Assembly: GCF_004143485.2 (NCBI RefSeq)
Contig: NZ_RXOB02000022.1
Span: 186,001 to 250,000 of the forward strand
DNA length: 64,000 bases
From: Halorussus amylolyticus
GTDB lineage: Archaea > Halobacteriota > Halobacteria > Halobacteriales > Haladaptataceae
Reading direction: 5' to 3'
Part shown: piece by piece, positions 6,215 to 36,639 of the stretch
How the letters are laid out: each line of letters starts with the position of its first letter
Position numbering within the stretch: position 1 is the stretch's first letter
Translations under genes and position numbers: made by a program
Notes under the pieces: generated by a model
Databases searched by the model: none
Told to the model about the DNA's origin: nothing
What the model saw: only the letters and a program-made list of their open reading frames with translations

Positions 6215-6339
6215 GGGTGGGACTGAAAGGGGCGGCGCGCTCGCGTTTACTTTAGTCGTCTCAGCGACCTCTATCTGCGCGGGCAGTGCGGAGAGCGCAG
6301 ATATGTCGCTGAGCGACCGCGAGCGCGCCGGGGCTTTCT
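6215..6339 (+). repeat. 3'-intergenic structured element, copy A
   Basis: Complete copy of a dispersed element. A head box (6215-6233, ending GGGACTGAAAGGGGC) is followed by stem P1 (6234-6245 with 6318-6329, 12 perfect pairs), a single-stranded TTTACTTTA, stem P2 (GTCG, bulged T, CTCAGCGAC at 6260-6268, pairing with 6305-6317), a three-base bulge CTC opposite one T, stem P3 (TATCTGCGC at 6272-6280 with 6295-6303), a loop, and the tail GGGGCTTTCT (6330-6339). It lies 41 bases after the dehydrogenase stop, same orientation. It could be an RNA 3' structure or a mobile hairpin DNA element. Confidence 0.75.
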
Positions 6340-7672: not shown

Positions 7673-7805
7673 AGAAAGCCCCGGCACGCTCGCGGCCGTT
7701 GCTCGGCATATCTGCGCCTCTCAGCAACACCCGGCGCAGATAGTGGCCGAGCAAGCGGCCACGGGCCTTCGGCCCGCGAGCGCGCCGCCCCTTTCAGTCC
7801 CACCC
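7673..7805 (-). repeat. 3'-intergenic structured element, copy B (covarying)
   Basis: Minus-strand copy. Head box at 7787-7805 and tail at 7673-7682. P1 pairs 7774-7786 with 7683-7695 with one G-U wobble in the minus-strand sense. P2 is TTGCTCGGC (element 5' strand, 7746-7754) with GCCGAGCAA (7699-7707), completely different in sequence from CTCAGCGAC/GTCGCTGAG of the other copies yet fully paired, extended by GGCCG/CGGCC across a single-base bulge. The three-base bulge (CAC) opposite one T is kept. P3 is TATCTGCGCC (7733-7742 with 7709-7718). A small extra hairpin GGGCC-TTC-GGCCC occupies the single-stranded segment. It starts about 70 bases after the chitinase stop, same orientation. Confidence 0.75.
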
Positions 7806-10202: not shown

Positions 10203-10897
10203 CAGAGGTACTCCCGCGTGGTCTCGTGAAGCGGTTCGAACCCTTCGGCGTACCTCGCGCCGGTGCGCTTGCCGAGGACGCGCGCCTCCGCCCGGACGCC
10301 CTCCACGAGGTGCTCGAATTCGGCGTCGATGCCGCCGTGTTCCTGCAGGAACGCGACCTGCGACTCGTGGGCGTCGATGGCGTCCTCCTTCACGTCCTGA
10401 TACTCGGAGATGTCGACGAACACCGACGGCTCGAACTCGGCGGTCGGCTTGCCGAAGAAGTAGACGTTCTCGGGGTCGTGTGGCGGATGTTCGGTGTCCA
10501 CCAGCGGGAGCGAGGCCATGTAGTAGGCGTCGGTGACGAGGCGCGAGGCCGCCCGGTGGTCGGGGTGCATGTCTTCCCGGTAGTGGGTCAGGATAACGTC
10601 GGGCTCGTGGTCGCGAATCACGTCCACGAGCGCGAGGCGATTTTCGAGCGAGTAGGTGATTCGGCCGTCCGAGAAGTCGAGGAAGCCGACCTCGGCTCCG
10701 AGCGTCTCGGCGGAGGCTTCGGCCTCCGTCTCGCGGACCGCGGCGACTTCCGCTTCGGTCGTGTCGAAGCCGCCGTACTCGCCGCGAGTGAGGTGGACGA
10801 TTCCGACATCGTCGCCGCGGTCGGCGTGCTTGGCGAGGGTTCCGCCGCAGAATATGTCGGCGTCGTCAGGATGTGCGACTATGGCTAACACTCTCAT
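10202..10897 (-). CDS. PIG-L (LmbE) family N-acetylglucosamine deacetylase
   Basis: A 231-residue zinc deacetylase of the PIG-L/LmbE fold, the fold of archaeal diacetylchitobiose deacetylase and of MshB. The zinc motif AHPDD is at residues 8-12 and the second ligand motif HPDH at 111-114. A longer frame runs to 11023, but the extra 42 residues look non-coding, and a TATA box at 10921-10932 supports the ATG at 10897. It is the first gene of a coupled pair with the glycosidase-like gene. In archaeal chitin breakdown this enzyme removes an acetyl group from chitobiose or GlcNAc, which fits the adjacent chitinase. Confidence 0.9.
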   Translation of the reverse strand: MRVLAIVAHPDDADIFCGGTLAKHADRGDDVGIVHLTRGEYGGFDTTEAEVAAVRETEAEASAETLGAEVGFLDFSDGRITYSLENRLALVDVIRDHEPDVILTHYREDMHPDHRAASRLVTDAYYMASLPLVDTEHPPHDPENVYFFGKPTAEFEPSVFVDISEYQDVKEDAIDAHESQVAFLQEHGGIDAEFEHLVEGVRAEARVLGKRTGARYAEGFEPLHETTREYL

Positions 10898-26035: not shown

Positions 26036-26252
26036 GTCACCGGCTGATTTCCCGGTGGACTGTGCCACCGGCCGTTTCCGGCGGCTGTGTCACCGGCCGT
26101 TTTCTGGTGGACTGTGCCACCGGCCGTTTCCGGCGGCTGTGTCACCGGCCGTTTTCTGGTGGACTGTGCCACCGGCCGTTTCCGGCGGCTGTGTCACCGG
26201 CTGATTTCCCGGTGGACTGTGCCACCGGCCGTTTCCGGTGGAACGTGTCACC
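26036..26252 (-). repeat. 26/52-bp tandem repeat between helicase stop and element C
   Basis: About four 52-54-base units, each made of two similar halves built on CACCGGCCGTTTCCGG-like sequence with GTGTCACC or GTGCCACC joints (GTCACC at 26036, 26089, 26141, 26193 and, ending, 26247). Units are nearly identical. There are no unique spacers, so this is a VNTR and not CRISPR. The right end reaches within 15 bases of the helicase stop. A shorter version sits in the same relative place before element D. Confidence 0.8.
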
Positions 26253-26265
26253 GAGCTATGCCCTG

Positions 26266-31204: not shown

Positions 31205-31330
31205 GGTCTCCCGACGATTTTCTCGGCGGGTACTGTTTCTTGACGGTCACTGTTTTTCGTCGGCCACTGCTTCTCGATAGCCACCCGTCCACCCGGCGCG
31301 CGCTGGCGCGACCTCGTGTCGCGCCCATGC

Positions 31331-31487
31331 GTGCGAGGGATGAGTATCGCAACGAGGAGCGAAGTGACGAGTGAGAAACGCAATCGGTTGGGGAGGGTGT
31401 GGCCTGCGGTGGCGGTGCAATGCAATACAACGTATTGCATCGCAATGCGGTGCTGTGCGGTTCTCCTAGGTACCGGGAGTAGCTAGC
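31331..31487 (+). repeat. Dispersed ~150-bp repeat, copy 1 (truncated, with insert)
   Basis: GTGCGAGGGATGAG...GGTTGGGGAGGGTGTGGCC...GCGGTGCTGTGCGG...ACCGGGAGTAGCTAGC is closely similar to the reverse complement of 36368-36490. Relative to that copy it has an extra stretch at about 31418-31450 containing a perfect hairpin ATGCAATAC-AAC-GTATTGCAT (31420-31440), and it lacks the second inverted arm. It fills the 396-base gap between the M24 peptidase and the aldo-keto reductase; nothing else was found in that gap. Confidence 0.7.
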
Positions 31488-33538: not shown

Positions 33539-33545
33539 TCGCGCT

Positions 33546-33606
33546 CGGTGACACGGACCACCGGAAACGGCCGGTGACACTGCCGCCGGGAAATCGACAG
33601 GTGACC
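33546..33606 (+). repeat. Short copy of the 26/52-bp repeat
   Basis: GGTGACAC...CCACCGGAAACGGCCGGTGACA...CCGCCGGGAAATCGACAGGTGACC is the reverse complement of one unit of the array at 26036-26252. It stands between the acetyltransferase stop and the head box of element D. Confidence 0.7.
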
Positions 33607-33614
33607 AAACCATT

Positions 33615-33743
33615 GGGATGGGAATGAAAGGGGCCGCCCGGTCGCGCCCGAAGGGCTTGGTCGTCTCAGCGACCCCTATCCGGAGCGAACGAAGTGAGCG
33701 GAGGATATGTCGCTGAGCGACCGCGACCGGGCGGGGGCTTTCT
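33615..33743 (+). repeat. 3'-intergenic structured element, copy D
   Basis: Plus-strand copy with head box 33615-33634 (variant GGGAATGAAAGGGGC), P1 CGCCCGGTCGCG (33635-33646) pairing perfectly with 33722-33733, P2 GTCG-T-CTCAGCGAC (33660-33673) with GTCGCTGAGCGAC (33709-33721), bulge CCC opposite T, P3 TATCC (33677-33681) with GGATA (33703-33707), and the tail GGGGCTTTCT (33734-33743). P3 is shorter here and its bases differ from the other copies. It begins 77 bases after the acetyltransferase stop, same orientation. Confidence 0.75.
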
Positions 33744-36270: not shown

Positions 36271-36490
36271 GGCGCGGTGCTGTGCTGTGCTGTGCGGTGC
36301 GGTTGCGGTCTTCATATGTACCGGCAGCAGCTAGCGAAATTCTCGAAACCGGACCGCAAGCAGAGCGAAGCTAGCTATTCCCGGTACATAGGAGACCGCA
36401 CAGCACCGCCACCGCAGGCCACATCCTCCCCAACCGACTGCGCTTCTCACTCGTCGCTTCGCTCCTCGTTGTGATGCTCATCCCTCGCAC
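36271..36490 (-). repeat. Dispersed ~150-bp repeat, copy 2 (with both inverted arms)
   Basis: The right part (about 36368-36490) is the reverse complement of the repeat at 31331. The left part supplies a mirror arm: ATGTACCGGCAGCAGCTAGC (36316-36335) faces GCTAGCTATTCCCGGTACAT (36370-36389) with 17 of 20 positions paired, and the outer GCGGTGCTGTGC runs (36274-36305) face GCACAGCACCGC (36398-36409). The whole could form a large hairpin, like a MITE. No coding capacity. The 503-base gap around it (36137-36639) has no other feature besides the paired sites at 36177. Confidence 0.7.
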
Positions 36491-36639
36491 GGAGTCGGCG
36501 CGAGATGAACTCGCGCCAGCGCGCGCCGGGGTGAAGGAGACACTCTTTCGAAGTTCGAACTCGGCTGTTGAGCGTCGTAGCCCCCGGTGGCGATTGCCGA
36601 CTCAGCGGACTTTTAGCCCGCGAGGCGAGAACGGAAGGC

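Follow-up and report, generated by a model that had tools for sequence, protein, structure and literature searches.

Copy B, the element found at 7674-7805 on the minus strand (read from 7805 to 7674), points to a dispersed repeat whose folded strand is recognised by something in the cell, and which is undescribed as judged by open-literature searches, Rfam and viral sequences. The window, that is, the whole 64-kb stretch of DNA analysed, carries four copies (A to D) out of about 90 in the genome. The copies hold the same predicted fold while their stem sequences drift apart, and selection on the folding of the element is supported by the comparison of aligned sequences.

Structure of Copy B

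Copy B consists of a hairpin core of about 130 bases, with the following parts. A1 denotes an alignment of 35 copies from the same genome, described below.

7674..7805, minus strand: hairpin core of copy B; model match 129.8 bits; fold -87.1 kcal/mol, z -5.85
7788..7805, minus strand: conserved 5' end GGGTGGGACTGAAAGGGG; GAAAG pairs with CTTTC, GGG lies opposite GGG
7775..7787, minus strand: P1 5' strand (predicted fold); helix 2 of alignment A1, with double-sided changes at 7 of 13 pairs somewhere in A1
7762..7775, minus strand: small hairpin GGGCC-GAA-GGCCC in the P1-P2 interval (predicted fold; alignment A1)
7746..7760, minus strand: P2 5' strand, one-base bulge at 7755 (predicted fold; P2 variant comparison)
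7733..7742, minus strand: P3 5' strand (predicted fold)
7719..7732, minus strand: terminal loop GGGTGTTGCTGAGA (predicted fold; alignment A1)
7709..7718, minus strand: P3 3' strand (predicted fold)
7694..7707, minus strand: P2 3' strand (predicted fold)
7682..7694, minus strand: P1 3' strand, G-U wobble 7783/7686 (predicted fold)
7674..7681, minus strand: conserved 3' end GGGCTTTC (invariant columns of A1)

The fold described in the original prediction, with its pairing and both bulges, was reproduced by an unconstrained RNA fold, whose energy compares with a mean of -65 kcal/mol for shuffled sequences; 0 of 200 shuffles were as good. The order of the parts is GAAAG/CTTTC, a GGG/GGG internal loop, P1, the small hairpin, P2, a 3x1 loop, P3 and a 14-base loop. 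P1 is CGGCGCGCTCGCG/CGCGAGCGTGCCG and includes a single G-U pair, the wobble already noted on the sense strand. P2 reads GGCCG-C-TTGCTCGGC/GCCGAGCAA-CGGCC with a one-base bulge between its two parts, and P3, TATCTGCGCC/GGCGCAGATA, is set off from it by the three-versus-one internal loop. Copies A, C and D adopt the same fold as copy B, also without constraint; their P2 is CTCAGCGAC/GTCGCTGAG, so the difference of copy B in this stem is real. The location first given for copy B does contain the element, but includes two flanking bases. The extra hairpin, earlier taken for a GNC hairpin peculiar to copy B, actually reads GGGCC-GAA-GGCCC, and it is not special to this copy, because a similar hairpin occurs at the same position in about 15 of the 35 A1 copies by visual reading.

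The other copies of the window and the repeats beside them are as follows.

6215..6338, plus strand: copy A, 135.2 bits
25907..26024, minus strand: copy C, 124.6 bits
25850..25869, minus strand: second copy of the P1 3' strand of C (57-base unit), sequence repeat
26048..26261, minus strand: tandem 26-base units CGGTGACAC..CCACCG upstream of copy C, sequence repeat
33616..33742, plus strand: copy D, 118.7 bits
33780..33799, plus strand: second copy of the P1 3' strand of D, sequence repeat
33540..33612, plus strand: 26-base units upstream of copy D, sequence repeat

Family Size and Distribution

The search of the 3.78 Mb genome (20 contigs) with the DNA of copy B gave 50 matches at E≤10, 40 of these with E<1e-7. 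Forty distinct intact copies were extracted, and the 35 shorter than 160 bases made up alignment A1 and model R1, the five left out being those with inserted hairpins. The model derived from A1 found 94 matches in the genome at E≤0.001, including a few on duplicate contigs and one antisense echo (E 6.9e-4). The pattern TGGGANTGAAAGGGG, with at most one mismatch, occurs at 81 genome sites, and its reversed form, used as a control, at 0. Contigs C16 and C7, as well as C10 and the end of C5, carry identical element copies at matching offsets, which suggests that they are redundant assembly contigs.

The copy number at E≤0.001 in 18 congeneric genomes was 0, 1, 6, 10, 11, 33, 33, 43, 51, 57, 58, 65, 77, 94, 106, 107, 110 and 148. 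In the sample of the haloarchaeal class, 186 of 292 genomes and 58 of 77 genera had at least one match at E≤0.001; this survey scored at most 12 candidates per genome with rough E-values, and therefore counts genomes and not copies. The best matches outside the genus reached an E-value of 6.7e-24. Named relatives with the element belong mostly to Halorussus, and the element is also present on three Halorussus plasmids. Viral contigs and phage records each had 0 matches to an exact pattern, and carriage by viruses was rejected on these grounds. Rfam gave 0 matches in the window at the gathering threshold; at E≤1 only RF01680 appeared, with 17.6 bits against a curated threshold of 60. Literature searches by terminal sequence and by topic retrieved no published description of the element, and an earlier one may exist in subscription journals or supplementary tables.

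Pairing and Covariation

In A1, 99.0% of 1326 paired cells form standard pairs. This proportion falls to 87.1% when the letters of the 3' side are shuffled and to 35.3-44.8% when the partners are slid by one to three columns, and the observed level was reached by 0 of 500 shuffles. Compensatory changes are widespread, with both sides altered in 21 of 38 pairs (151 cells). A further set of 40 distinct copies, taken from other genera and from a relative of low completeness, has 96.9% of cells paired and both sides changed in 25 of 38 pairs (183 cells); alignments A2 and A3 lean towards the model to which they were fitted, and 11 of the 41 rows of A3 belong to a draft congeneric genome. The larger set of copies keeps its pairing despite double-sided changes and therefore favours selection on folding over selection on sequence, as had been argued from copy B.

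It was also claimed that the whole P2 stem had been replaced in copy B. The sequence does differ and the pairing is kept, but replacement in one stroke did not stand, because this P2 is common to four copies and is linked to others by single base-pair steps. The 75 copies compared (the best 77 of 129 matches minus duplicates; those left out are weak or are antisense echoes of the palindrome) contain 40 variants of P2. Of the fully paired variants, 27 of 31 are connected through single base-pair steps into one network, which takes in 30 when two steps are allowed. The P2 of copy B, present in 4 of the 75 copies (copy B and three others), is one step away from TTGCGCGG/CCGCGCAA, and several of the paired intermediates contain G-U. 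It is probably the end of a drift via paired intermediates, and one-stroke replacement seems unlikely. Recombination between unrelated hairpins, with no conserved bulge, would have spoken for a swap; the larger set shows a network of steps and a kept bulge. A foreign hairpin swapped in was rejected on the strength of the single-step network.

Conserved Base, Bulges and Flanking Sequences

Both bulges said to remain in copy B, the one-base bulge of P2 and the three-versus-one loop, are found in its fold and in most folded copies. Among elements of 101-149 bases, to which the fold counts apply (61 from the same genome and 71 others), the one-base bulge is predicted in 54 of 61 and 63 of 71, the 3x1 loop in 41 and 52, and the GGG/GGG loop in 59 and 66, respectively. 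The constant base GGGTGGGANTGAAAGGGG ... GGGGCTTTC closes the long bulged hairpin. Five copies (L193, L194, L195, L197 and L200) have a different interior, and L187, L190 and L191 are bare hairpins of 52-58 bases, with the base unchanged in all of them. The interior can thus be exchanged or absent while the base is retained, and the base is therefore the constant part.

The five copies with the second class of interior, located on contigs C1, C2 and C10 of the genome, have a sequence of the AAGCAC..GCGCAGCGAG type between GGGACTGAAAGGGGC and GGGGGCTTTC ends, and their P1 is also paired and copy-specific. In copy L046, GAAAG/CTTTC is changed to GGAAG/CTTCC, both sides being altered in step. The base of the copy B hairpin (7788-7805 with 7679-7682) contains four runs of G, GGG-T-GGG-ACTGAAA-GGGG and GGGG opposite, and, judging by these letters, a quadruplex could compete with GAAAG/CTTTC.

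One or more units of 26-27 bases, of the type seen beside copies C and D, lie upstream of the hairpins. About 38 conserved bases follow the hairpin downstream, and a repeat of the P1 3' strand often terminates them. This repeat agrees with its own element's P1 variant in 179 of 216 letters, more than chance would give (permutation p 1e-4; 24 copies with the repeat within 120 bases). Some copies contain inserted hairpins between P2 and P1 or within GGGTGGGA. In many copies (L009, L016, L027, L030, L156, L163, L170, L179, L185, L187 and L200), a double hairpin of the TTCCGAAAGAC..GTCTTTCG..TCCCGTTCGTTCCTCAC type sits at one fixed place inside GGGTGGGA, upstream of the core. In L005, L028, L159 and L198, and in L046 and L058, sequence resembling CGGTTGGGGAGG..GTGGC..GCGGTTGCGGTG replaces the 26-base units upstream. 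L171 and L176 have the distal hairpin in common and differ in P1.

Folded Strand and Gene Context

In the ungapped alignment of P1, G-U cells outnumber A-C cells 40 to 8 (169 of 178 distinct elements, nine having been dropped because under 9 of the 13 pairs were Watson-Crick). The counts are 23 against 1 in A1, or 12 against 1 by distinct column and pair type, and 50 against 9 in A3, or 24 against 8 by distinct type; all helices of the 75 copies from the same genome contain 42 G-U and 9 A-C. The type counts are safer than the cell counts, because shared descent inflates the latter, and it is the type counts which say that one strand is likely to be the folded strand. In predicted folds, the sense strand is more stable as RNA in 59 of 61 copies of the genome and in 60 of 71 others, partly because of the fixed GGG/GGG loop.

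According to a home-made gene caller based on codon usage (83 of 87 copies usable), the element is co-directional with both neighbours in 36 cases, opposite to both in 12, between divergent genes in 27 and between convergent genes in 8. The excess of sense orientation in co-directional gaps is significant (36 vs 12, p 0.0007), and the downstream gene is co-directional with the element in 63 of 83 cases. Standard pairs make up 97.9% of cells in co-directional, 98.0% in divergent, 100% in opposite and 94.5% in convergent contexts (6 copies in the last), and the 25 copies between divergent genes have 16 G-U and 3 A-C. Pairing is as good between divergent genes as in co-directional gaps, and therefore simple read-through RNA does not account for the selection. 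Either the element has its own promoter, or the folded form is single-stranded DNA. No TATA-like signal was seen in the 80 bases upstream of the element. The core promoter of haloarchaeal genes is expected nearer to the gene start than the end of the element, which lies at least 69 bases before the start of the downstream gene and upstream of that promoter; therefore, the element is hardly a leader.

Gain, Loss and the Search for a Mobiliser

Corresponding sites in related genomes were compared for copies C and D. Of 16 regions corresponding to the D site, 10 were read completely and the others searched for the 5' motif, from which L225 and L226 deviate; eight of the ten lack the element, and these two have it together with the flanking units, the gene to the left of L225 being a different one. 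For the C site, 9 regions out of 13 were read completely and the others searched for the 5' motif; three contain the element (L235, L237 and L247), one a remnant (L238) and five are empty. The three elements have other stem sequences which are still paired, and the P2 of L247 is that of copy C. Gain and loss between species is clear. It was not possible to resolve a clean empty-site junction or a target duplication at the C and D sites, where the flanks are too diverged for duplications to be read.

The median identity of a copy to its nearest neighbour in the genome is 88%, and identities of 95% or more are reached by 8 of the 83 copies. Recent bursts are not evident, and most copies are probably old. 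Since recent copies are few, there seems to be no active movement here and each copy is seemingly kept, which a host function would also fit. Runs tests on two chromosomes, among the matches listed, gave z -0.71 for 71 copies and 0.03 for 64, with no strand clustering and no support for a replication-strand bias.

The genome has 0 matches to the Y1 transposase domain PF01797 despite its 94 element matches; PF01797 is present in 10 of the 18 congeneric genomes, with no visible relation to element copy number. The element model at E≤10 had 0 matches in the four TnpB loci of the genome and in six Y1 loci of relatives, the terminal motif was absent near the four TnpB genes, and an IS605/TnpB origin was rejected. 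Spread by reverse transcription, as a retro-mobile RNA, was rejected as well, with PF00078 matches in 0 of the 18 congeneric genomes. The 5' end of the element resembles an archaeal crRNA tag, and the downstream units of 53-57 bases have the look of an array, with spacers that resemble one another. A CRISPR link was discarded: Cas1 was not found in the genome, and the spacers are degenerate copies of one another.

Comparison with Known Repeats

Dispersed hairpin repeats are common in prokaryotes. The element is like REP, BIME and REPIN sequences in being a high-copy intergenic imperfect palindrome with a conserved foot sequence beside it and no internal transposase. It is unlike them in its core of about 130 bases, its covarying stems and the lack of a Y1 transposase, the hallmark of the REP/RAYT system, in its own genome. 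BIMEs bind gyrase or IHF. ERIC (IRU) sequences are intergenic imperfect palindromes of about 127 bases, and the element is similar to them in size, palindromic structure and position; the ERIC sequence is conserved, whereas the stems of the element are copy-specific. In integron attC sites, the fold of one strand and its extrahelical bases matter and the sequence drifts; the likeness here would be one of mechanism in principle only. In the accessible text of the respective papers, REPs are described as 20-40 bases long with GTAG/CGTC tags (PMC3733652), and no haloarchaeon is named for RepRanger (PMC12306157).

The closest haloarchaeal counterparts are known from Haloquadratum. As far as the accessible text of PMC3119063 goes, PATEs are transposase-free, heterogeneous and palindromic, with a short conserved terminal oligonucleotide and short core-deleted forms, and their near-terminal palindromes are related to those of IS605-type transposons. 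The element shares the host group, the lack of a transposase, the heterogeneity, the palindromes, the short forms and the conserved end, but the tested TnpB and Y1 loci had no match to it. The small mobile repeats (SMRs) described there are about 80-110 bases long, bear no relation to known transposons and are mobilised in an unknown way; the element is likewise unrelated to known transposons and no mobiliser was found. SMRs of one type are commonly more than 95% identical (PMC3119063), in contrast to the nearest-neighbour identities given above. Compared with SMRs and MITEs, GAAAG/CTTTC together with P1 would correspond to inverted ends, and the flanks are too diverged to read target duplications, which MITEs have and SMRs lack. 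The best reading is that the element is a transposase-free dispersed repeat with a REP- or PATE-like lifestyle, outside those families by the tests made.

Interpretation

The first choice, held tentatively and at slightly under an even chance, is recognition of the folded strand by a putative factor that spreads or maintains the element. Copy B would belong to a haloarchaeal family of transposase-free dispersed repeats. A single strand, RNA or single-stranded DNA, would fold in the cell, and a putative trans-acting factor would read it at the base and bulges; binding would spread or keep the element, by analogy with transposases acting on REP hairpins and integrases acting on attC sites. Stem sequence would be free provided that pairing holds, and old copies would therefore diverge while the fold persists. 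Covariation, the kept bulges, the P2 step network, the one-strand bias (which, like the pairing, holds between divergent genes), the copy number of 0-148, the occupied and empty sites, and the base common to the short forms and the second class of interior count for this reading. Against it count the lack of a mobiliser, of recent copies in number and of a resolved empty-site junction or target duplication, the non-independence of G-U cells, and the absence of the strand clustering that lagging-strand insertion might give. The second choice, possible though rather unlikely, is that the copies form a family of structured non-coding RNAs, which would be driven by weak promoters of their own or contained in the transcripts of neighbours and would act as RNA through protein binding, mRNA stability or antitermination. 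Covariation with a sense-strand G-U bias, the prevailing sense orientation, the co-directional downstream genes and the stability of the sense strand as RNA agree with it; the missing TATA-like signal, the distance to the downstream start, the congeneric genome with no copy at E≤0.001 and the equally good pairing between divergent genes, a setting that makes up 27 of 83 contexts and in which read-through is not to be expected, do not.

A chromosome-level DNA structure, either a cruciform or a protein-binding palindrome that would serve supercoiling or insulate genes from one another, is improbable. The intergenic position, some 90 copies and a palindrome on both strands would suit it, but a cruciform predicts equal numbers of G-U and A-C, against the 40 and 8 counted, and the copy number ranges from 0 to 148 within one genus. 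It is very improbable that the stems stay paired with no selection acting, either because imperfect palindromes undergo templated correction or because gene conversion links the copies. Modules common to different copies, such as the distal hairpin of L171 and L176, and downstream repeats matching their own P1 strand are in its favour, yet bulges should vanish under such correction, and the one-base bulge and the GGG/GGG loop are kept in 54 and 59 of 61 copies; the G-U strand bias is not predicted either. As a broader proposal, and a doubtful one, there may be a haloarchaea-wide class of dispersed elements recognised purely via the fold of one strand. A candidate nuclease, recombinase or RNA-binding protein would read the bulged hairpin and its GGG/GGG base, the stems would be free copy-specific labels, and the tandem downstream copies of the P1 strand would offer alternative partners for the element's own 5' strand.

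About 90 paralogues in one genome amount to a natural mutational scan, in which the base, the bulges and the pairing are kept, and the stem sequence and distal loop are free. In a culturable archaeon, it becomes directly testable whether repeats of this kind are junk or objects that the cell recognises, with the element usable as bait for the factor.

Other Features of the Window

The genes neighbouring the copies in the window are ordinary and encode a zinc alcohol dehydrogenase, a SelA-like protein of the aminotransferase fold, a family 18 glycosyl hydrolase, a DEAD helicase, a thioredoxin, a GNAT acetyltransferase and a dehydrogenase-like protein. A further pair of long inverted repeats, at 31285-31423 and 36398-36537, includes 94 bases that are 91% complementary and 41 bases that are 83% complementary, and encloses about 5 kb. 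The sole tRNA of the window, tRNA-Thr (CGT) at 10723-10822, is 100 bases long and probably contains an intron.
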